Origin: Pedobacter frigidisoli
GTDB taxonomy: Bacteria; Bacteroidota; Bacteroidia; Sphingobacteriales; Sphingobacteriaceae
Assembly (NCBI RefSeq): GCF_004331675.1
Contig: NZ_SJSN01000015.1
Coordinates: forward strand, 1-64,000
Direction: 5' to 3'
DNA: 64,000 nucleotides
A model generated the notes under the pieces. That model made no database searches. It saw nothing but the letters and a program-made list of their open reading frames with translations, and was not told where the DNA came from. The position numbers and the translations under genes are program-made. This document shows positions 7,217-21,753 of this stretch, in pieces. Position 1 is the first letter of the stretch, and each line of letters starts with the position of its first letter.

Positions 7217-8506
7217 TTATATCGCTTCTGCTACCACAAAAGTGCTACCACCAATGAAAACCAAATCGTTGGGTGAGGCAGATTTCACTGCAGTTTCCTT
7301 GGCTTCGATAACTGAATTGTATTTCTCTCCTATTAAATTTAATGGCGACGCTTGCTCCATGAGTTCGGCAGCATCTAGCGCCCTTTCTAAATCTGGTTTG
7401 CAGAAATAATAGGTTGCGTTTTTTGGCATTATTGATAAGACTTTAGAAATATCCTTATCCTTTACCATACCGAAAACGATGTGGAGTTTTTCGAATTTTG
7501 TTTGATTGATGTTTTTAATCACTTCCGCAATTCCAGCTTCGTTATGTCCTGTATCGCAGATAATTAATGGGTTTTTACCTAGGATTTGCCATCTACCTTG
7601 TAATCCAGTTAGCTTTTTGACTTGTTTTAAGCCATTAAAAACATTCTGTACTGAAACCTTAAAATTTGTATTTCCATTTAATACTTCAATGGTTTCTAAA
7701 ACGGTAAGAATATTTTTATGTTGATAAATGCCGGTTAAATCACTGATCAGATTTTTGTACTTGATTTGATCATTCTCGTAAACTGATAAAGAAAGCTTTG
7801 AGTTTTTGATTTTAAAATCCTTGGCTGATAACACATTATCAGCAAAAATAATTGGTGCTTTCATCTCATCAGCTTTGCTGATAAAAACCTGTGCAGATTT
7901 TTCTTGTGTCTCGCCAATTACCACAGGAGTTTGCTTTTTAATGATTCCAGCTTTTTCACCAGCAATTTCCTCGATGGTATTGCCGAGCATATTGGTGTGA
8001 TCCAAACTGATATTTGTGATTACAGAAATTTCTGGTTGAATAATGTTTGTAGAATCTAACCGGCCACCCAAACCTACTTCAATTATTGCAATATCTACCT
8101 GATGTTTAGCAAAATGATCAAAAGCTAAAGCGACAGTTACCTCAAAAAATGAGGGTTCTACTTTTTCAATTAAGCTTTGTTGATTTTTTACAAAGGAAAC
8201 GACTTCAGCTTTACTGATCATTTTTCCGTTAATGCGAATACGTTCGCGGAAATCTTTTAAGTGTGGGGAAGTATATAATCCAGTTTTATAACCTTGTGCT
8301 TGCAAAACTGCCGCAAGCATGTGCGAGGTTGAACCTTTACCATTTGTCCCTGCCACATGAATGCTCTTGAATTTATGTTGAGGATTATCCAGGGCTTCGC
8401 AAAAGATTATGGTATTAGTTAAATCTTTTTTGAAAGCAGAAGCACCCACACGAGTAAACATTGGAAGTTTACTGTATAAAAAATCGAGTGTTTGGGCGTA
8501 ATTCAA
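7217..8506 (-). CDS. folC: Folylpolyglutamate synthase / dihydrofolate synthase
   Basis: Mur-ligase-family enzyme that joins glutamate to dihydropteroate and extends the polyglutamate tail of folates in the cytoplasm. The ATP-binding HVAGTNGKGSTSH loop lies around residue 50, with LYTSPHL following. EVGLGGRLDSTN and the C-terminal GHNEAGI segment are also typical. At 429 aa it is full length. It is 33 bp downstream of the TonB-like gene and is probably the last cistron of the envelope operon, an arrangement with no obvious functional link. Confidence 0.93.
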   Translation of the reverse strand: MNYAQTLDFLYSKLPMFTRVGASAFKKDLTNTIIFCEALDNPQHKFKSIHVAGTNGKGSTSHMLAAVLQAQGYKTGLYTSPHLKDFRERIRINGKMISKAEVVSFVKNQQSLIEKVEPSFFEVTVALAFDHFAKHQVDIAIIEVGLGGRLDSTNIIQPEISVITNISLDHTNMLGNTIEEIAGEKAGIIKKQTPVVIGETQEKSAQVFISKADEMKAPIIFADNVLSAKDFKIKNSKLSLSVYENDQIKYKNLISDLTGIYQHKNILTVLETIEVLNGNTNFKVSVQNVFNGLKQVKKLTGLQGRWQILGKNPLIICDTGHNEAGIAEVIKNINQTKFEKLHIVFGMVKDKDISKVLSIMPKNATYYFCKPDLERALDAAELMEQASPLNLIGEKYNSVIEAKETAVKSASPNDLVFIGGSTFVVAEAI

Positions 8507-8538: not shown

Positions 8539-9372
8539 TTAATTTCTTTTGAAATTAAATACCACAACTCCTGTTTGACTATCTTTACCAGTATCAGATT
8601 GACTTAAAGTAGAATTCATTACAGCTTCAATACACTTGTTAACCAATGCTGTGTTTGTTGTTGTAGAACCTTTTAATTCCTGTTTGGCGCTAGTAATTCT
8701 GCCTGCTTTATTGAAGAAAATTCTAATAGCTATCCTGCCTTCTTCTTGTCCGTCATCTTTTGGTATTACAAGATTTGAAAACTTCCGTAGTTCAATGGGT
8801 TTATTCCCGTTTCCTGAACCACCCTCGCCATAATTTGGAGCAAGAGGATCACCATTTACTGAGCCTTGGTTTCCAGGAGTATTCCCAGTTCCATCGCCTT
8901 GTCCTTGTCCGGTATTCTTTTTGCCTTTATAGAGTGCATTTTGATTGATGACAGGTTTCGATGGTTTATCTTCGGTAACTGTAGTAGGAGCGGTAGTTGT
9001 TGCTTTGGTTGGTTTGGTATTCACGGCAACAGCATCCTCTGTATTTTGTGTTTGAATTTCTTTATCGGTGTTATCGCTAGAAGTTGTTGGTGTCACCTTT
9101 TCTTCTGGAGTAACTTTATCAGGTGCTTTTCCATTTGCGTTTGGATCTGCTGATGGCTCTTCGATACTTGTGTAATCATCACCCATTCCTTCTGCAGAGG
9201 TTCCATAATTCACAACCATGCCACCCATACCCACTTCTTCAACTGGTTGGAATGATCCAATTACAATAAAAAAGCTAATCAAAAGCAAAACACCCATTAT
9301 GCCACTTGCTATTGCAATGGCTTTTGGGTAATTGTTTTCTTCATTAGGTATGTTTTGCGCTTTATAGTTCAT
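8539..9372 (-). CDS. TonB-like energy transducer
   Basis: 277 aa with an N-terminal cytoplasmic stub, one membrane helix (about residues 17-40), a long low-complexity Thr/Pro/Lys/Gly-rich periplasmic region, and a C-terminal domain (about 195-277) of TonB/TolA type: RIFFNKAGRITSAKQ followed by a paired-strand ending in VVVFNFKRN. Such proteins carry proton-motive energy from ExbB/ExbD across the periplasm to an outer-membrane partner. Its ATG shares one base with the exbD stop, implying translational coupling. The C-terminal domain is divergent, so TolA-like behaviour is also possible. Confidence 0.75.
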   Translation of the reverse strand: MNYKAQNIPNEENNYPKAIAIASGIMGVLLLISFFIVIGSFQPVEEVGMGGMVVNYGTSAEGMGDDYTSIEEPSADPNANGKAPDKVTPEEKVTPTTSSDNTDKEIQTQNTEDAVAVNTKPTKATTTAPTTVTEDKPSKPVINQNALYKGKKNTGQGQGDGTGNTPGNQGSVNGDPLAPNYGEGGSGNGNKPIELRKFSNLVIPKDDGQEEGRIAIRIFFNKAGRITSAKQELKGSTTTNTALVNKCIEAVMNSTLSQSDTGKDSQTGVVVFNFKRN

Positions 9373-9773
9373 TATTTCTTTGGCTCTACAGCTACAACAA
9401 GTTTTAATTTCAGTTTATTGGCAATATCGTTTACCACAAATCCATCCTGATAAGTTACATTACGAGAAACATATAAAAGAATAGTCATATCGGGAGCTAC
9501 TTTTTGGTAAGCTGCTAATGTTGGTTCTAACTCTTCTATGGTTACGGGTTTCTTATCAACGGTATATTTTAAATTTTCGTCTATCGTAACCGTAACAGCT
9601 TTTTTGGCTGTAGATTGTTGTCCACTAGATGATTGTGGAAGCAGCAATTTTACTACAGTTGGATTTACCACGGCAGATGCCAATAGGAAAAAAAGCATCA
9701 GGAAGAACATAATATCGTTCAACGCTGAAGTGTGTACTTCTACCGATCCTTTTGTTCTTTTGCGTAAATTCAT
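9372..9773 (-). CDS. ExbD/TolR-family biopolymer transport protein
   Basis: 133 aa with one N-terminal membrane helix (about residues 18-38, DIMFFLMLFFLLASAVV) that includes the aspartate conserved in ExbD, TolR and MotB proton channels, then a small periplasmic domain. With the ExbB-like protein it forms the proton-driven stator. It overlaps by one base with the genes on both sides (exbB upstream, TonB-like downstream), so expression in fixed ratio is likely. Confidence 0.88.
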   Translation of the reverse strand: MNLRKRTKGSVEVHTSALNDIMFFLMLFFLLASAVVNPTVVKLLLPQSSSGQQSTAKKAVTVTIDENLKYTVDKKPVTIEELEPTLAAYQKVAPDMTILLYVSRNVTYQDGFVVNDIANKLKLKLVVAVEPKK

Positions 9774-10477
9774 TATTTGCCTGGTTCTTCTAGTAAATCA
9801 ATAAAATCAATCGCATCGGTTTCCATTTTAAGAATGATTTTTTCTACCATAATATTTAAAATGTGGTAAAGTACATAAGCAATGATACCGATAATTAAAC
9901 CTGTAGCCGATGTAATCATTTTGGTGTATAAACCACCTGAAATGGTTCCAATTTCGATAGCACCTTTAATTGATACCTGATGGAAAATTGTAATTACCCC
10001 AACAATTGTACCTACGAAACCAAGCATTGGGGCAATACCCGCAATTATACCAAGAATACTAATGTTTTTTTCGAGTTTCGAAACCTCCAATTTACCAACA
10101 TTCTCGATAGCACCTTCGATATCTTTAATAGGGCGGCCGATACGCTTTAAACCTTTTTGAAGCATGCGAGACAGGGGAGAATTATTGTTTTTCAATAACG
10201 ACATTGCGCCATCTAAATTTCCCGATTGGATGTAAGACCTAATCTGCCCCATCAAATTCGACTCATCTTTTGTTGCCTTTTTGATCGTTAAATAGCGCTC
10301 AAAAAATATGAATAAAGCTAAGAATGCCAAAAATGCCAATGGTACCATTACCCAGCCACCTTTAAAAAGAAGATCGATGAAACGCAATTCTGGAGCGGGT
10401 TGAGTTAGCGCCTGATTAACTGCGTTTGCTGTGTCTTGTAGTGCTTGTGTAGTGTCTTGAATTAATAAAGTTATCAT
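9773..10477 (-). CDS. MotA/TolQ/ExbB-family proton channel
   Basis: 234 aa with a first membrane helix at about residues 38-60 and two C-terminal helices. The conserved GIIAGIAPMLGFVGTIVGVI segment and the later KMITSATGLIIGIIAYV helix are typical of TolQ/ExbB channel subunits. Partner of the adjacent ExbD-like protein. Its ATG overlaps the stop of the HU/SPOR gene by one base. Confidence 0.9.
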   Translation of the reverse strand: MITLLIQDTTQALQDTANAVNQALTQPAPELRFIDLLFKGGWVMVPLAFLAFLALFIFFERYLTIKKATKDESNLMGQIRSYIQSGNLDGAMSLLKNNNSPLSRMLQKGLKRIGRPIKDIEGAIENVGKLEVSKLEKNISILGIIAGIAPMLGFVGTIVGVITIFHQVSIKGAIEIGTISGGLYTKMITSATGLIIGIIAYVLYHILNIMVEKIILKMETDAIDFIDLLEEPGK

Positions 10478-11955
10478 TATGGTTGTGTGTTGTTAACTAT
10501 TTGTTGTACGTAAAAACCTTTTCCTTTAAGTTTCTTTTGAAGAATGAGTAAATTATCTTCGGCTTCTTTTTGAGTTTTATAAGAACCAATGCTGATGTGT
10601 TGCCTTGGTCCATGAATTTTAACAATTTTTGCTTCTATTCCGACTCTTTTTACATCCTTAATATATTTTTCAGCTCCTTTAACTGTTTTATAAGAAGCCC
10701 CAATGATATCAAAAGATACTGTGCCGATACTGTTTATAGCTTTAATATCAGTTGTGGTTATAACTGCTTTCTTTGTAGAATCCACAGTTTTTTGTTGAAC
10801 CTGATTAGCTTTTAAAATGCTATCTGTTTTTGCAGTCGAATCTTGCTTTGCTTTTGCAGTATCTTGGATAACTTTAGGAGAATCTACTATTGCAGCTGGC
10901 GGCAGTGTTTCAATTTTAGACTGCTTGTTAAATAACTCTGGTTTTACAAAATATAAAATAACACCAATTAATATAACTATAAAGAGTGCAATAATTATTT
11001 TCGGCCAAACTGATTTACCTTCTTCCTCTAATGGCTCATCAACTAAGGGATCGTGCCCAAAGCGGTTAGGGTGTTCTGCGTGTTGTTCCTTAATAAATTC
11101 AGGGGCTTCAATAACATGTACACCGTTTTCATCCTCTTCAAGGTCAATATATGTTATTGGGTCTTCCGATTCTGGTGTATGTCCAAAACGATTAGGATGT
11201 TCTTCGTGTTGATGCTTAATAGCTTCAGGCACTTCTATTTCTTGATTTATTGAAGTTGAAAGCACTTCCGATTCTGGTGTATGTCCAAAACGATTAGGAT
11301 GTTCTTCGTGTTGATGCTTAATAAATTCTGGCGCTTCAAAAACTTCTTCTTTGGTTATTTCCGAATGCTTTAGAGTGTTTTTAAAATCGTCCTTTACCTC
11401 ATCCAATTCTATATTTTCGATAACTGGATGTTTATATTCAGCTTCCTCTGTTTTTTCAATGCGAACTGGAGCAGTTGGCGCCTCAGCTATTTCATCAAAA
11501 ATATCGTCTTCGTCGGTTTTTAAAGTACCTGGTTTTGGTTCATCAACTACCGTTTCTGGCAATGATGGCAAACCATAAAACTCAGATCCATAATTAATAT
11601 CCTTACTTGGTTCGAAACTTAAGCCCTCGTGTTCAGTGAAAAATAATCGACCTAAATTTTCCAATTCAGATTCGTTTTCAAGTTCTAGCTTTTGCTTTAC
11701 TTCATCAACAAATTGAGAAATATAATAAGTCGCACTTTCTGAAGAGATGTTTCTTTTGGTAGAAATAAATTCAGCAAGGCTTTCTTCTTCCTTAACATCG
11801 GCAGAAAACTGAAGCGCATAACTTGGTGGTAAAAACGATTGTTTTTCCTTATCGTACCTGCCCGGAAATTTCTTTTTATAGAAAGTGCCCAAGCCGGTAA
11901 TACCAACTTCTTTGCGTTGCTGCAAGAGTTCTAAAAGGTATGATAAGATATCCAT
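10477..11955 (-). CDS. HU-CCDC81 and SPOR domain membrane protein
   Basis: 492 aa. The N-terminus (about residues 1-130) matches the paired prokaryotic HU-CCDC81 domains: GITGLGTFYKKKFPG, PPSYALQF, and a second unit ending in GSEFYGLP. A charged linker carries three copies of an EAPEFIKxQHxEHPNRFGH unit, then one membrane helix (about 318-336) and a C-terminal SPOR domain (about 415-488) that would face the periplasm and bind denuded peptidoglycan. The HU part would sit in the cytoplasm. Known members are envelope-linked in Bacteroidota. It starts the translationally coupled exbB-exbD-tonB set. What the HU part binds here is unknown. Confidence 0.82.
   Translation of the reverse strand: MDILSYLLELLQQRKEVGITGLGTFYKKKFPGRYDKEKQSFLPPSYALQFSADVKEEESLAEFISTKRNISSESATYYISQFVDEVKQKLELENESELENLGRLFFTEHEGLSFEPSKDINYGSEFYGLPSLPETVVDEPKPGTLKTDEDDIFDEIAEAPTAPVRIEKTEEAEYKHPVIENIELDEVKDDFKNTLKHSEITKEEVFEAPEFIKHQHEEHPNRFGHTPESEVLSTSINQEIEVPEAIKHQHEEHPNRFGHTPESEDPITYIDLEEDENGVHVIEAPEFIKEQHAEHPNRFGHDPLVDEPLEEEGKSVWPKIIIALFIVILIGVILYFVKPELFNKQSKIETLPPAAIVDSPKVIQDTAKAKQDSTAKTDSILKANQVQQKTVDSTKKAVITTTDIKAINSIGTVSFDIIGASYKTVKGAEKYIKDVKRVGIEAKIVKIHGPRQHISIGSYKTQKEAEDNLLILQKKLKGKGFYVQQIVNNTQP
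11041..11323 (-). repeat. Internal repeats inside the HU/SPOR gene
   Basis: Three coding repeats. Two copies are identical over 59 bp (11163-11221 and 11265-11323, offset 102 bp or 34 codons); a third near 11050-11100 is diverged. They encode the EAPEFIKxQHxEHPNRFGH units of the linker. Nucleotide identity including silent sites points to recent duplication or gene conversion. Confidence 0.9.
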
Positions 11956-12009
11956 TCCGGTAAAATTAAGCGTTTTTTCTAAACCTACGTAATAATTAAT
12001 TTAATGCGT

Positions 12010-13707
12010 CTAAAATGAATAGGTTAGTCCGCCGAAAATATTAAATCCGTTAACTTGGTAATATAAATACCTGCTGTAATTTTTATTTAAGATATTGTTT
12101 GCCTTGGCAAAAACTGAGAATTTGTTGTTAATTCTATAATCGGCGCCAAGTCCTAAATCTACAAATCCCTTAACTGTAACGATAGATTCGATAGTTGGAT
12201 TTGGAATTACGTATTGCAATGGACTAACTGGATTTGCAATATTTACTTTTGCTTTTACATCATCTTGAATAACAACAGCTGCATTAAAACTCAGTTTTTT
12301 GTTATAAGTATAAACGAAGTTCGAGCTTACTTTTAATCCCGGTTTAAACCAAGTATAAGTTTCTGATGCTGGTTTCCAATCATCGACATTCAACTTACCA
12401 GTCCATTTTAATGCATCACTAACTTGAACAGAAATTTCACCCTCTAAACCCGTTAATTTGGTTTTGCCAAAATCGTAGATTACATCAAACTTATTAAAAT
12501 CGGTGTAATTGTTAATGAACAAAGGCATATCATCAAACTGCTTTACATAAACACGAGCTTTATAACCAAAACCTGGTCCTCCTGTACCCTTTATACCAGC
12601 ACTGAAACTTAATTTTTCAACTGTGTTTTTTACTAGAATATTATTGTTTAACCAAGGATTTTCATCTGTGAAGCCCTTTAACGAATTTCGGTTTACATCA
12701 CCTTTAACCTCTCCAAAAACCTGTAAATAATCTGGAATTAAAGTGAAGTCTGCTGTAATAGCAGGGAAGATTTTCGAACTGCTGTAAGCACCAAATTCCT
12801 GAACAAAATTAATTCCTGCGGTAATTTTTGCTCCCTTAACCTGTAAACGGATGTAGGGATTTAAGCGCAACAAGTTATTACCTACACTCGTTAAGGCATC
12901 TTTGGTATTTCCGAATTCTGTTGAAGCAGCTAAGCCCAAATTAAGTGAGTTGATGCGTTTGTTTAAATAACCATTAAGGCTAAAGTAATTTTCTTTAGCA
13001 CTAAACTTATCACTCCAGATGTATCCGTTAGCTTTTAAGGCATAACTCAAAGCATCTTGATCTTCGGTAAAGTTTTTAACCAACTCACCTTCCAATTCTA
13101 TAAAAGATAAAGCCTGTTTTTCAGGATTAGGATTTAAGGTAGGTTTGTCGTTACCAATCCCGTAGAAATAAGTTCCGTTACGCTCGTAATTAATACGTCC
13201 GCTAACGGTATTTTCCTCTAAAATACTACGACCAAAAACGCTTAATTGCTGGTTGCTGCTATTTTGTTTGTTTAGCTTTCCTTCTTGACTGAAATGTTTA
13301 AAGTAACCACCAACTTGTAAGCCTTCATCTTTTCCGGTATTAAAATAAGCCTCGCCTAAAAGGGTAGATTGTGAACCAAATGCACCTTTAACATAATTAT
13401 TAATTAATTCAGTTTCCTTTTCTGCGGCTAATGATTGCGCTTGGAGTTTTTGAATGTCGCTATTTAATTCTAGTTTTCTATCGGTAATGCTGTAATTAAG
13501 CTTTGCTTTATAGATTTTAACATCATCCAAATTCGGACTCCTCCTCAACTTTACAGCTTCGGCTAAAATTGGTTTATATGGACGAACAACTTCAATTTCC
13601 TCGTTAACAACAGTTTTTTCATCAGGCTTTTTATCCTGCGCCTGAGCAGTCATTAATCCAGCAGCTAAAAAAAACAGTGAACTATATATATATTTAATCG
13701 ACTTCAT
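12010..13707 (-). CDS. Outer-membrane beta-barrel protein, no plug domain
   Basis: 565 aa with a signal peptide (about residues 1-23, ending AQAQ). A short periplasmic N-terminus contains the stretch EEIEVVRPYKPIL, then a long run of alternating amphipathic strands ends in GGLTYSF. The C-terminal phenylalanine is the usual outer-membrane barrel signal. Strand features resemble TonB-dependent receptors (NNKFSVFAKANNILNKNY), yet there is no plug domain and the length is short. IEVVRPY could act as a TonB-box-like contact, which is inference. It lies 4 bp after the TPR gene and 54 bp before the HU/SPOR gene. Confidence 0.7.
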   Translation of the reverse strand: MKSIKYIYSSLFFLAAGLMTAQAQDKKPDEKTVVNEEIEVVRPYKPILAEAVKLRRSPNLDDVKIYKAKLNYSITDRKLELNSDIQKLQAQSLAAEKETELINNYVKGAFGSQSTLLGEAYFNTGKDEGLQVGGYFKHFSQEGKLNKQNSSNQQLSVFGRSILEENTVSGRINYERNGTYFYGIGNDKPTLNPNPEKQALSFIELEGELVKNFTEDQDALSYALKANGYIWSDKFSAKENYFSLNGYLNKRINSLNLGLAASTEFGNTKDALTSVGNNLLRLNPYIRLQVKGAKITAGINFVQEFGAYSSSKIFPAITADFTLIPDYLQVFGEVKGDVNRNSLKGFTDENPWLNNNILVKNTVEKLSFSAGIKGTGGPGFGYKARVYVKQFDDMPLFINNYTDFNKFDVIYDFGKTKLTGLEGEISVQVSDALKWTGKLNVDDWKPASETYTWFKPGLKVSSNFVYTYNKKLSFNAAVVIQDDVKAKVNIANPVSPLQYVIPNPTIESIVTVKGFVDLGLGADYRINNKFSVFAKANNILNKNYSRYLYYQVNGFNIFGGLTYSF

Positions 13708-13711
13708 AATT

Positions 13712-16700
13712 CTACTTCTTCTGGTTTAGTTTTTCTAGTTTCTCTTTGGCTGTAGGGATGATATCATCCTTGCCTTCGTAATTATCAATTATACTTAGAA
13801 GTGTGCTTTTTGCTTGCAAATTATCTTTTAAGGCAACATAGTTATCAGATAAAAGGATGAATGCTTTCGCAACCCAATAATCATAAGCGGCCATATTATT
13901 AACGATTTCAAAGCAGGTTTTTGATGATGTCTTAAAATCGCCCTTACTGTATTCTAATAAAGCCAAATTGTATTTCGCTTCTGCAGCTGCAATGGTTTTA
14001 GTGGTAGCAACAACATTTTTAAATTCCTTAACAGCTGTGGTAGTATCACCTTTTAATAAGTAAGCTTTACCAGCAAATAAGCCAGAACTATTTTTTTCTT
14101 CTTCCGATGCTTTTTCTGATTCCTTGGTTAATTGCGCATATTTCAACATATCATCAGGCATGTTTAAAGCAGTGTAAGCCTTTAGCAAGTTGTTAATTGC
14201 GAAACTGTAGTGCGATTTGTAATCTGTTGTAGTTTCTAATCTTTTTAGATAAACAATGGCTTCGTTATATTTTTTCTGATTAAGAAATAGCGTTGAAATA
14301 CTAACCAAAGAACGTTCGGTATAATCGCTTGTCCAATCGTTTAAGATAAATTCGTAATCTGGAATAGCTTCATCAGGGCGACCAAGTTTAACCAAAGATT
14401 CGGCTCTGATAAACTTTGCCTCTTTTTCGTGATTAGCTTCAGGGAACTTATCAAAATAAGCATTAACTGCCTGAAAAGCACCATTGGCGTCGCCTTTTAA
14501 ATAAAGATTATTTGCCGCTGAGAAAATGATATTATCTTGTTCGTTTTTGGAGTAATTTCCAAGTGGGGTAGTATTTGCATAAGCAATAAAGCCATTTGCA
14601 TCGCCTCTGTCTACATAAATGTTTTTTACTGATTCCATTGCCTGTTTAGCCTCATCAGCTGTGGGATAATCGCGGATAACCTTTTTAAACGATTCTAAAG
14701 CGGCATCATCCTGATCTTGGTTATATTGAACTAAACCAATGGTAACCAATGCTTTTGGAACATAACTACTGCGTGGATATTTCGCGACCAAATCAACCAA
14801 ATCAGATTTAGATTTATCGAAATCTCCCTTGTTGAAGTATGTGTAAGCAGTTTCAAAGCCAGCATCATCTGCATAGTTAGAGTTCGGGAAAGCACGAAGT
14901 AAACTTTGCATTGTTACTATTTTAGCATCGTATTGGTTTTCCAAACCTTGAATCATCCCTTTTTGGAAAGTGGCATAATCCTCTGAAACAGTTTTTCTGC
15001 TGATGATTTTATTGTAGTTAGCCATCGCATCGCCGTAATTCTTGTTTACGAAGTAAGAATCTGCCAAACGAATGGTTGCATCATCAATGGTTTTTTGATC
15101 CTTATCATTGCCAGCCAGAAACTTTTCGAAGTAATTGGCTGCTTTGCTGTATTTCTCATCTTCGAAAGCAGCATAAGCTAATGCATAATTTGCAAAGTTG
15201 TAAACACCAGTTTTATCAGCATCAGGCATTTGCAAAAACTTCTCGAATGTAGAAACTGCCTCACCGAACTTGCGTAATTCGTACATTGATTCTGCTTTCC
15301 AATAAGTACTTAATGCACTAATCTCATTATCCTCAGGATATTTCTCCGAACGTAAGAACATTGCTAAGGCATTCGGAAATGCCCTTTCATTATAAAATTC
15401 TAAACCGCGGAAATAAGTTACTTTTTGATATGCTTCCTTAGCTTCTAGTGTTTTGTTTGGAATGGGTTCCAAAATATCTACAGCGGCTTGATAGTTTTTG
15501 GTGGTTAGTAAAACCTCGCCCAATAATGTTTTAGCCTCGTTAATTCTAGCAGATTTAGGGAACTGTTTTAAGAAACCCTGAGTAGCTTCCAAAGCCTGCT
15601 GATGAAATTCTAGCTCGTAACTTAGCTTTGCGTAATTTAACCAAGCTTCTTCTTGAATTCCTTTATCAAAATCTAAACGAGATGCCCTAAAAAATGCACT
15701 TTGCGCTTTTTGCTTATTTCCTAATTGGATAAAAGCCTTTCCAAGCGTGTGCATACCATTTTGTAGGTAAATATCATCTGTGTTGAGTTTTTCTAGAACT
15801 GCAACAGATTCCTTATACTTTTTATTTTGAAGTAATGAATAGCCGTATTGATAGATGAAAAGGTTGTTTTTAGTCTCACTTTTATCTTTTGCATAATATT
15901 CGGCAAAATATTTTTCGGCATTTTTAAACTCAGATTTTGCAAAGTAGGAAGCCGCAACCAAGCTCAACATTTCTGGTTCAAATTGTTGCTTAGTTTTTTG
16001 CATAGCTGGCAATGCATAGCTAATTACATCATCATAACGTTCATCTAAATAATACATCGAAGTGATGTAATACGGATAGCTGGCCTCATAAGTAGGCGAG
16101 CCTTTTAATTTTTCGAAGTTTGCTAGTGCTGTTTTATACTCCTTATTTAAATAGTTAATGTAGGCAAAATAGTAGGTAGCGCTTTCCTGAAAATCCCCTT
16201 CTTCTTTTTTTACTTTCTCGAATAATGGCTCTGCTTTTTCAAAATCCTTTAACTCGAAATAGGCGTAACCTTGTTTAAACTGGTACTCATTTCTCTGTTT
16301 TCCCGATAGGGTAGATGGATCCGTTTTTTCGAACCACTCTAACGCTTTTTTGTAGTTTTTTTGATTGAAATAGGTTTTGCCTACATAAAAGTAAGCCAAT
16401 TTGGTGTTCGGGTTTAAAGGGTAATCACGAATAAAAGCCTGAAATAAACTTTCTGCATCGCTATTGGTTAGTTCTAAGGCACAAACAGCAGCATAGAATT
16501 TAGCATTTTCTTTAAGCAGCGATAATTCTGCGTTGCTTTCAGTTTGGGTAGAGGGTTTATATCGTTGCTGCTCAACAAGTTTAAACTGTTGTGCCGCTGC
16601 TGTATATTTTTCTTTGTCTAATAATTCTAAGCCAGTTTGGTAGTTTTTATTGAGGTTTTGCACTGCGCTAACTTGCGCATAGGTGGTAAAACTTCCTGCC

Positions 16701-16744
16701 AAAAGTAGCGGAATCAGTAAGTATTTTTTCTGCATTGGTTTCAA
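13712..16744 (-). CDS. Large TPR-repeat exported protein
   Basis: 1010 aa with a signal peptide (about residues 1-24, ending TTYAQV). The rest is tetratricopeptide repeats, with recurring units such as AYFYVGKTYFNQKNYKKALEWF and YNEAIVYLKRLE. This forms an extended solenoid for protein-protein contacts in the periplasm or at the outer membrane. An alternative ATG lies three codons in. It is the first gene of the envelope cluster and only 4 bp from the barrel gene, so the two products probably act together. Related large TPR proteins accompany outer-membrane machines in Bacteroidota, but no specific function can be assigned. Confidence 0.8.
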   Translation of the reverse strand: MKPMQKKYLLIPLLLAGSFTTYAQVSAVQNLNKNYQTGLELLDKEKYTAAAQQFKLVEQQRYKPSTQTESNAELSLLKENAKFYAAVCALELTNSDAESLFQAFIRDYPLNPNTKLAYFYVGKTYFNQKNYKKALEWFEKTDPSTLSGKQRNEYQFKQGYAYFELKDFEKAEPLFEKVKKEEGDFQESATYYFAYINYLNKEYKTALANFEKLKGSPTYEASYPYYITSMYYLDERYDDVISYALPAMQKTKQQFEPEMLSLVAASYFAKSEFKNAEKYFAEYYAKDKSETKNNLFIYQYGYSLLQNKKYKESVAVLEKLNTDDIYLQNGMHTLGKAFIQLGNKQKAQSAFFRASRLDFDKGIQEEAWLNYAKLSYELEFHQQALEATQGFLKQFPKSARINEAKTLLGEVLLTTKNYQAAVDILEPIPNKTLEAKEAYQKVTYFRGLEFYNERAFPNALAMFLRSEKYPEDNEISALSTYWKAESMYELRKFGEAVSTFEKFLQMPDADKTGVYNFANYALAYAAFEDEKYSKAANYFEKFLAGNDKDQKTIDDATIRLADSYFVNKNYGDAMANYNKIISRKTVSEDYATFQKGMIQGLENQYDAKIVTMQSLLRAFPNSNYADDAGFETAYTYFNKGDFDKSKSDLVDLVAKYPRSSYVPKALVTIGLVQYNQDQDDAALESFKKVIRDYPTADEAKQAMESVKNIYVDRGDANGFIAYANTTPLGNYSKNEQDNIIFSAANNLYLKGDANGAFQAVNAYFDKFPEANHEKEAKFIRAESLVKLGRPDEAIPDYEFILNDWTSDYTERSLVSISTLFLNQKKYNEAIVYLKRLETTTDYKSHYSFAINNLLKAYTALNMPDDMLKYAQLTKESEKASEEEKNSSGLFAGKAYLLKGDTTTAVKEFKNVVATTKTIAAAEAKYNLALLEYSKGDFKTSSKTCFEIVNNMAAYDYWVAKAFILLSDNYVALKDNLQAKSTLLSIIDNYEGKDDIIPTAKEKLEKLNQKK

Positions 16745-19479: not shown

Positions 19480-19857
19480 TTATTCTGCCGTTTTAACTGG
19501 CTCTAAATCTTTTAATTCCTCTGTAGAAAACAAGCGATAATGAATTTTAAAGGTTTTTTGTAATGGGGTTTCTAAGGAAAATCCTCCAACTCCGAAACCG
19601 TCCAAAACATCAAGCGTAAAATGGGAGAATTTCCAATATTCATAAAGATCTCGATCTACCCAAAATTCGCAATTTTCTACTTCACCTAAACAAACATCAC
19701 GCATTCGAAGATAATAGCCTCCCTTTTCGAAACATTGTGGTTGAGTGCCCTCACAACATCCACCAGCTTGGTAAAACATCAATTCGCCGTGTTTTTCTTT
19801 TAAGATGTTGATTAATTTCTTGGCTTCATCTGTGCTATCAATTCTCTTTATCATCAT
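19480..19857 (-). CDS. DUF779 domain protein, aldehyde dehydrogenase partner
   Basis: 125 aa. Conserved features include ELMFYQAGGCCEGTQPQC near residues 26-43, a cysteine cluster, and the C-terminal FSLETPLQKTF segment. DUF779 genes typically sit next to an aldehyde dehydrogenase of this type, as here, 58 bp downstream of it. The cysteines suggest a metal- or redox-linked accessory role, but no function is established. A second ATG follows immediately (19854). Confidence 0.82.
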   Translation of the reverse strand: MMIKRIDSTDEAKKLINILKEKHGELMFYQAGGCCEGTQPQCFEKGGYYLRMRDVCLGEVENCEFWVDRDLYEYWKFSHFTLDVLDGFGVGGFSLETPLQKTFKIHYRLFSTEELKDLEPVKTAE

Positions 19858-19915
19858 TCATTAGGGTCAGTTCATTCCAATTATTAATGCTTAAATAAAT
19901 GTTTTGTTTCAATTA

Positions 19916-21421
19916 TTAAAAGAAACCCAGTTTATTCTTATCGTAAGAGATTAACATATTTTTGGTTTGGCGATAGTGACCTAACATCATTTTATGATTT
20001 TCTCTACCAACGCCAGATTGTTTATAACCTCCAAATGGCGCTCCTGCGGGGTAAGAATGATATTGATTTACCCAAACCCGACCAGCTTGGATAGCTCTCG
20101 GTACTTGGTACAGTTCATGTGCATCACGAGTCCAAACGCCAGCACCTAGTCCATAAAGTGTATCATTTGCAATTTCTATTGCTTCTTCAACTGTTTTAAA
20201 AGTAGTGACTGCCAGTACCGGACCGAAAATTTCTTCTTGAAAAATTCTCATTTTATTATGACCCTTAAAAATGGTTGGTTTGATGTAGTAACCTGATTCA
20301 AGATCCCCTTCCAATTTATTTACATCACCACCAGTTAATAGTTCAGCACCTTCTTCTTTTCCTAATTTGATGTAAGCAGCAATTTTCTCAAACTGAATTT
20401 TAGATGCCTGTGCGCCCATCATTACGGTTCTATCCAGCGGACTACCGATTTTTATTGCTTCTGTTCTTTCGATTACTTTTGCGATGAATCTATCGTAAAT
20501 ATCTTCTTGGATTAACAATCGGGATGGACAAGTACAAATTTCACCTTGATTTAAAGCAAACATTACTGCACCTTCAACTGCTTTATCTAAAAATGCGTCG
20601 TCTTCATCCATTACCGAACTGAAGAACACATTTGGAGATTTTCCACCTAATTCTAACGTTACAGGAATAATGTTTTCCGTAGCATATTGCATTACTAACT
20701 TTCCGGTAGGTGTTGAGCCAGTAAATGCCGCCTTTGATATTTTTGGATTAGTAACTAATGCTCTGCCAAGCTCTGCGCCAAAGCCATTTACAATATTGAT
20801 AACTCCAGGAGGCAACAAATCGCCAATTAATTCCATTAAAACCATAATAGAAATTGGAGTGCTTTCAGCAGGTTTAAGCACAACGCAATTACCAGCGGCT
20901 AGTGCTGGAGCTAGCTTCCAAATACCCATTAAAAGTGGAAAATTCCAAGGAATAATTTGTGCAACTACACCAATTGGTTCGTGTACAATTAATGAAACCG
21001 TATTTGCATCCAGCTCAGAAAGCGAGCCTTCCTCCGCACGAATTACGCCAGCAAAATACCTGAAATGATCTATTCCCAACGGTAAATCTGCAGCTAAAGT
21101 TTCTCTTACCGCTTTTCCATTATCAATTGTTTCAACAGTGGCCAGATATTCTAAGTTATCTTCCATTCGTTGAGCAATCTTATTTAAAATAATACTTCTT
21201 TCTGTCGAAGACGTTTTGCTCCATGTTTTAAAAGCTTCATGTGCAGCATCTACAGCTAGTTCTAAATCTTCTTTTGATGAGTGGGCAGCCTTGGTAAATA
21301 CTTTCCCATCAATCGGCGAGATGTTATCGAAATAAATGCCTTTTACTGGTGGTACAAACTTACCTCCGATATAATTATCGTAGTGGGTTTTGAATGATGG
21401 TCTTTCAATTAAATTTTCCAT
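19916..21421 (-). CDS. NAD(P)-dependent aldehyde dehydrogenase
   Basis: Oxidises an aldehyde to the acid, probably acetaldehyde or a related short aldehyde by similarity to ExaC/AldB-type enzymes. Visible: the cofactor segment [12 protein letters not shown], the general-base glutamate in [10 protein letters not shown], the nucleophile in [11 protein letters not shown], and the C-terminal [15 protein letters not shown]. The longer frame starts at 21454, but the ATG at 21421 ([11 protein letters not shown]) gives 501 aa and fits the family. Cotranscribed with DUF779; the divergent AraC-type gene is the likely regulator. Confidence 0.93.
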
Positions 21422-21753
21422 GATTATTATTGGTTTTTTAAATTGGAAAGCCACTAAGGTTTTTTCTGAGATTGAATTTTATCGGAATTGCTCATAGTGA
21501 ATTTCGCGATTACAAGATTTGGTTAATACAAACCTAATCGCAAAGCCAATGTAGCAGGTAGTATAATCGGCTCAATTGGTAGCACTTTTCATTCATGCTT
21601 TGTAACCTTATTGAATCGATATTGCGCTTGTTGTATAAATACGTAATGTAATCGGATAAGTATAATTTGGCGTCGCCAAAATCAACCTATAAATCAATGA
21701 AATAAATTATATTTGATTATTAAGTAAATGTCTAACCAAAATCAATTCGGATT
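21422..21753. promoter_or_regulatory. Divergent ALDH / AraC control region
   Basis: 332 bp between divergent starts. It contains a perfect 15-bp inverted repeat TTTGGCGTCGCCAAA (21666-21680), 73 bp before the araC-type ATG, which is a candidate operator. No exact TAnnTTTG box is evident. Nothing else coding is seen. Confidence 0.45.

Follow-up and report, generated by a model that had tools for sequence, protein, structure and literature searches.

A dedicated ExbB–ExbD–TonB motor with a SPOR protein, a predicted plug-less barrel and a TPR solenoid: a conserved Bacteroidota operon and its possible role at the cell envelope

Introduction

Bacteroidota are major gut and environmental diderms, and a 2025 study, which reports that tol-pal loci could not be identified in Bacteroidetes, asks how their outer membrane is tied to the wall and constricted without Tol-Pal (PMC12204202). 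Two systems described in that study resemble the operon considered here. PorE is a proposed outer membrane–peptidoglycan tether that would answer the missing Tol-Pal (PMC12204202); it differs from our operon in being a T9SS-tied lipoprotein fusion of CpoB/TolB/Pal-like domains, with genes unrelated to those discussed below, and it could be a partner of the operon machine. The vWA force-transducer loci (Fig. 4 of that source) combine a motor, a TPR gene and a periplasmic transducer, as our operon does, whereas their tolQR-like genes accompany a vWA transducer, and that part of the text mentions neither a barrel nor a SPOR protein (PMC12204202).

Other comparisons come from TonB systems. The TonB-dependent transporters (BtuB, FepA, FpvA) and SusC share with the operon's barrel a fold, a C-terminal signature and, most clearly in the barrel's deep relatives, an N-terminal Ton-box-like motif, whereas the operon barrel comes without a plug, SusD or substrate genes and has its own motor and SPOR gene alongside. 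TonB1 of Riemerella anatipestifer, a putative orthologue of the operon's motor module, has been studied for iron, hemin and transformation, and the portions of that work used here state no tie to barrel, TPR or SPOR genes. Here we describe a gene set, with motor, barrel, TPR and SPOR genes, that is both ancient and widespread in Bacteroidota.

The operon and its products

The window, i.e. the whole 64,000-nucleotide stretch of Pedobacter frigidisoli DNA that was analysed, holds at 8539–16744 six tightly packed minus-strand open reading frames (ORFs) in the order TPR, barrel, HU/SPOR, ExbB, ExbD, TonB. A previous reading of the sequence without database searches (hereafter, the sequence-only reading) had listed these six genes with gaps of 4, 54, -1, -1 and -1 bp, and the ORFs confirm that layout. 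The features are as follows.

13712–16744, minus strand: TPR solenoid protein, 1010 aa, exported (ORF, Pfam, NCBIfam, AlphaFold)
12010–13707, minus strand: outer membrane barrel of 565 aa, TonB-dependent-receptor type, predicted to be plug-less (ORF, AlphaFold, Foldseek)
13570–13602, minus strand: Ton-box-like EEIEVVRPYKP, barrel residues 36–46, a putative TonB contact; weak in the window, strong in deep relatives
10477–11955, minus strand: HU-CCDC81 / transmembrane / SPOR protein, 492 aa (Pfam and family profile)
11575–11949, minus strand: two HU-CCDC81 domains, residues 3–127, cytoplasmic side (Pfam)
10942–10998, minus strand: single transmembrane helix of the HU/SPOR protein, about residues 320–338 (hydrophobic stretch KIIIALFIVILIGVILYF)
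10507–10698, minus strand: SPOR domain, residues 420–483, periplasmic side (Pfam, family profile; strong in relatives)
9773–10477, minus strand: ExbB of a separate group, neither TolQ nor canonical ExbB (Pfam, NCBIfam, tree)
9372–9773, minus strand: ExbD with transmembrane Asp (ALNDIMFF) (ORF, Pfam, motif scan)
8539–9372, minus strand: TonB-type force transducer with an N-terminal transmembrane helix, a disordered-looking linker and a TonB-like C-terminal domain
7217–8506, minus strand: folC, folylpolyglutamate/dihydrofolate synthase, 32 bp after tonB (NCBIfam)

The barrel protein by itself has no Pfam match; its family profile, however, matches TonB-dependent receptors of known structure, and it shares a C-terminal sequence signature with TonB-dependent transporters. 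AlphaFold2, run with 21 homologues, models residues 105–565 confidently as a barrel, for which Foldseek returns FpvA, BtuB and the PfeA/FepA type (E 3e-18 to 1e-14, TM about 0.6); these matches place it in the 22-strand TonB-dependent-transporter type, an assignment made by structural resemblance. Where a receptor would carry its plug, residues 17–101 are predicted to be disordered, and the Plug family (PF07715) has 0 matches in the barrel and 78 in the same genome. The suggestion that this barrel lacks a plug thus holds at the level of prediction.

A large barrel of the TonB-dependent-receptor type with no plug leaves a wide lumen, raising the question of whether something passes through it. 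The barrel could be an energised channel that carries large substrates (lipids, lipoproteins, glycans or DNA) out or in; the TPR protein would then act as the gate, a dedicated TonB motor would drive the channel, and SPOR would be a mere anchor. The LolA-like and LPG-synthase-type genes found upstream in one family (f23) are in keeping with such a conduit. The R. anatipestifer tonBA (tonB1) mutant, which transforms less and has no iron defect, also fits (PMC8383284). On the other hand, an open pore of such size would breach the barrier unless some partner plugs the barrel, the neighbourhood holds no constant substrate or enzyme gene, the distribution is very wide with no niche specificity, and the constant SPOR domain goes unexplained; we consider a conduit less likely than the reading preferred below, yet the most likely of its rivals.

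Could TonB engage the barrel? The sequence-only reading had proposed EEIEVVRPYKP as a TonB contact, and for the window alone this proposal fares poorly: with a Ton-box matrix built from the genome's own receptors, the motif is outscored elsewhere in the barrel protein, and even the top-scoring position there has p = 0.15. Relatives make a better case. Deep members of the barrel family carry LP[DE]FVITG (for example, LPEFVITG) right behind the signal peptide, which closely resembles a classical Ton box, and two relatives of the window's family have EEIVVTTAYKP. When the matrix was scanned over the N-termini of 41 barrel sequences, 11 scored at p<0.05 (combined p 5e-9, a value that is overstated since the rows are related). 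By alignment, it is plausible that the window's EEIEVVRPYKP is a derivative of the relatives' motif.

The TPR protein has a signal peptide ending in TYAQ, with a likely ATG start at 16735. Pfam TPR repeats span all 1010 residues, and AlphaFold predicts helix pairs from residue 27 to residue 1007 with a mean pLDDT of 90, a solenoid over the whole length of the protein. The YbgF/CpoB model TIGR02795 scores 184.5 bits against a cut-off of 90.1, a score that is the sum of nine repeat matches, and the repeats also match BamD/YfiO profiles; TPR repeat profiles cross-match widely. A search with a smaller TPR alignment gave only Flavobacteriaceae-type records. The BamD/YfiO matches, together with the elaborated BAM of Bacteroidota (PMC12611786), would be consistent with a motor-powered outer-membrane assembly or homeostasis factor beside BAM/TAM. 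Given the cross-matching of TPR profiles, the fact that BAM needs no proton motor, and a study of F. johnsoniae BAM that names neither TPR/tetratricopeptide nor SPOR proteins, we regard this as the least probable of the explanations considered. The same F. johnsoniae study lends no support to the barrel or the TPR protein being a known BAM subunit.

SPOR domains bind denuded, usually septal, peptidoglycan. The window's third protein belongs to both the HU-CCDC81 and the SPOR families (PF18174, PF18175, PF05036), for which Burroughs et al. in 2017 reportedly gave a comparative-genomics description; the literature that we searched yielded no functional study of HU-CCDC81 with SPOR. Its HU-CCDC81_bac_1 and _2 domains score 65.6 and 28.7 bits (Pfam cut-offs 35 and 26), and its SPOR domain scores 19.6 bits, just below the cut-off of 21; SPOR is clean in deep relatives (37–55 bits), and the family profile matches HU/IHF as well as the SPOR domains of CwlC, DedD and FtsN. 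With the transmembrane stretch between the two, the predicted span from HU to SPOR stands. The weight that the sequence-only reading had placed on the HU domain does not: HU is dispensable, as members in family f8 and deep members in f30/f14 keep SPOR and have no HU, and some family members begin just ahead of the transmembrane helix and hence lack HU. Within the window's gene, a 73-nt repeat occurs three times (11037–11337, minus strand) and encodes EAPEFIKHQHEEHPNRFGH-type linker repeats before the transmembrane helix; two of the three copies are 95% identical and the repeats are absent from aligned relatives, so that they look like a recent internal duplication.

The remaining three genes amount to the proton-motive-force motor that had been proposed. 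The window's ExbB matches MotA_ExbB (79.8 bits) and its ExbD matches ExbD (78.7 bits) in Pfam, and the transmembrane Asp of the proton path is kept in every ExbD row examined. TonB from the window alone has no Pfam match; its family profile does match the C-terminal domains of TonB proteins with solved structures (E about 1e-4). The TonB transmembrane helix carries an SxxxH motif in deep members and in several others; the window and its family lack it. In an IQ-TREE phylogeny, operon ExbBs form one group that tracks taxonomy and neighbours the canonical Bacteroidota ExbB. The TolQ proteins of E. coli and green sulfur bacteria fall outside it; the group has moderate support (86/73), and the tree has long branches. 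Judging from this tree, the operon ExbB group is vertically inherited. TolQ, the best NCBIfam match of the operon ExbB, reaches 68 bits against a cut-off of 221 and is excluded by the phylogeny.

Distribution in Bacteroidota

We used a sample of 247 genomes, 54 from one family (f17) and 193 from outside it. A near-full-length barrel match was found by profile search in 61/61 sampled genomes of the window's class; a profile built from deep members found matches in most other families, and by hand count about 140 of the 193 non-f17 genomes have near-full-length barrels. In four families (f13, f29, f35, f43), diverged barrels lie between TPR and ExbB genes and were assigned by position. Profile searches returned no convincing barrel or TPR orthologue in families f12, f15, f28, f37 and f40.

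Barrel neighbourhoods were inspected in 40 genomes from many families. The TPR gene directly precedes the barrel in 36, the exceptions being four genomes of family f23 in which it lies elsewhere. In 23 of the 40, the run that holds the barrel continues to a gene of the operon ExbB group, and in those examined a gene with a SPOR domain separates the two. The full order TPR>barrel>SPOR>ExbB>ExbD>TonB recurs in deep Bacteroidota families, and chance adjacency of these genes is untenable because of this conservation across the phylum. Conservation of gene order, the check suggested by the sequence-only reading, is thus upheld for deep families and fails for others: Flavobacteriaceae-like genomes and those of families f11, f3 and f7 have the genes scattered over three loci (TPR-barrel, ExbB-ExbD-TonB(-folC) and HU-SPOR), yet keep all parts.

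The motor and R. anatipestifer TonB1

Two types of ExbB, the operon group and the canonical one, are found in nearly all class-level genomes tested, and a canonical ExbB-ExbD-ExbD-TonB system coexists with the operon in the genomes examined. Which of the two corresponds to R. anatipestifer TonB1? In that species, tonB2 adjoins leuS and a phosphate-binding-protein gene (PMC4446302). In an f3 genome, leuS and the PBP gene neighbour the canonical TonB locus, and the operon-group locus has a single ExbD and protein sizes matching TonB1; from this layout, R. anatipestifer exbB-exbD-tonB1 is very likely the orthologue of the operon motor. In f3 genomes, the barrel, TPR and SPOR genes lie away from this TonB1-type locus.

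In R. anatipestifer, losing tonB1 alone alters neither hemin uptake nor growth under iron-poor conditions, and when tonB2 is lost TonB1 can partly sustain the uptake of hemin; in E. coli, the TonB1 complex functions with the iron transporters of that host and rescues a tonB mutant (PMC4446302). A tonBA (tonB1) mutant is reduced in natural transformation (PMC8383284). These phenotypes indicate that the operon motor works as a TonB whose main job seems to be other than iron, that the motor is dispensable in that species, given the viable deletion, and that the transducer is not exclusive to the barrel, given the partial hemin support. One might ask, then, whether the motor is simply a second general TonB nutrient-uptake system, next to which the barrel, TPR and SPOR genes lie by history only. 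The partial support of hemin uptake upon tonB2 loss and the function with E. coli transporters would agree with this idea; the retention of gene order with a plug-less barrel and a SPOR protein in deep families, the coexisting canonical system and the lack of an iron or hemin effect when tonB1 alone is deleted speak against it, and we find it improbable.

Comparison with Tol-Pal

By family, the operon is not a Tol-Pal system, although it may work like one. In addition to the TolQ result, the tolR model gives the window's ExbD 31 bits against a cut-off of 127.3, the window genome has no match to TolB_N and none to TIGR02800 that comes close to the cut-off, and none of the operon ORFs is a Pal/OmpA-like gene. 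Both systems have a proton motor of the same superfamily, an inner-membrane force transducer, a periplasmic TPR protein with YbgF-like repeats and, by prediction in the operon's case, a link to peptidoglycan. They differ in that the window operon has no TolB or Pal and its ExbB is not TolQ; moreover, it would touch peptidoglycan through a SPOR protein of the inner membrane, and its putative outer partner is an integral barrel.

The two are also distributed in a complementary fashion within the phylum sample. Full-length TolB, with an equivalog score close to or exceeding the cut-off, occurs in 53/54 f17 genomes and in 0/193 others. The FMO protein is present in 6/6 f17 genomes tested, which identifies f17 as green sulfur bacteria; one f17 locus reads tolQ-tolR-tolA-tolB-pal-ybgF, with tolA below its own cut-off and the others above. 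Neither the plug-less barrel nor orthologues of the TPR protein or of the operon-group ExbB were found in the f17 genomes tested. This pattern is suggestive of functional replacement and amounts to a single evolutionary contrast involving one clade. Searches of some genomes returned neither the TolB equivalog nor a convincing plug-less barrel: G001, G006, G011 and G016 (f12); G079, G125 and G137 (f28); G167 and G215 (f37); G005 and G087 (f15); and G180 (f40).

Proposed function

That the operon encodes a trans-envelope machine is well supported. The sequence-only reading had gone further and taken the set for one energised machine, not a generic TonB system, and that interpretation is supported in part: the gene order of deep families, the dedicated ExbB group, the SPOR gene between barrel and motor in the intact operons examined and, in relatives, the Ton-box-like motif on a plug-less barrel all favour it. 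Our preferred reading, to which we assign a probability of roughly 0.45, is that of a dedicated proton-driven machine that would tie the outer membrane to peptidoglycan and to constriction, a Tol-Pal-like job done with non-homologous outer parts. The ftsK and lolA genes just upstream in family f23 fit this reading but say little, as that gene order is old and also occurs in E. coli. A more specific form, in which the operon is the Bacteroidota replacement of Tol-Pal and its TonB-type motor pulls, in place of a TolB-Pal lipoprotein, the plug-less barrel and TPR solenoid at SPOR-marked septal peptidoglycan during division, is slightly more tentative.

How might such a machine operate? As in their families generally, ExbB and ExbD would use the proton gradient to set TonB in motion, which would cross the periplasm and bind the Ton box at the barrel N-terminus, a step suggested by the motif in deep relatives. 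Because there is no plug to unfold, the pull would act on the barrel itself and its attachments, not on a nutrient gate, and the most likely attachment would be the long TPR solenoid on the periplasmic side. From what is known of SPOR biology, the SPOR protein would position the motor where peptidoglycan is denuded, usually at the septum. The net effect would be an outer membrane linked both to peptidoglycan and to constriction through outer parts unlike those of Tol-Pal, and we infer a role of the machine in division.

If so, this operon may be how Bacteroidota pull the outer membrane inward without Tol-Pal, and it suggests that TonB force may act on a barrel with no transport gate. The operon is a concrete candidate for constriction without Tol-Pal, with genes that are ancient, very widely distributed and served by a motor of their own.

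Genomic neighbours

Several observations concern the surroundings of these genes. folC is likely the last, seventh gene of the run; it stays beside the operon-type tonB in many relatives from several families, including some in which the barrel lies elsewhere, and it is probably a conserved neighbour outside the machine itself. In family f23 (L064, L065, L066, L051), ftsK, a lolA-like gene and an LPG-synthase-TM-type gene lie directly upstream of the barrel operon. Among loci with a separate HU-SPOR gene (the L194, L196, L191, L192, L205 set), that gene is followed by one for an FHA-domain protein in family f11 and by one for a YciA-like thioesterase in flavobacteria-like and f3 genomes. The thioesterase was considered as the YbgC of Tol-Pal and rejected, as it matches YciA and an FHA protein takes that slot in other families. 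A sigma-70/terminator scan, a method unsuited to Bacteroidota promoters, gave results at or below chance. Elsewhere in the window, at 19480–21454 on the minus strand, a DUF779 protein gene adjoins an aldehyde dehydrogenase gene.
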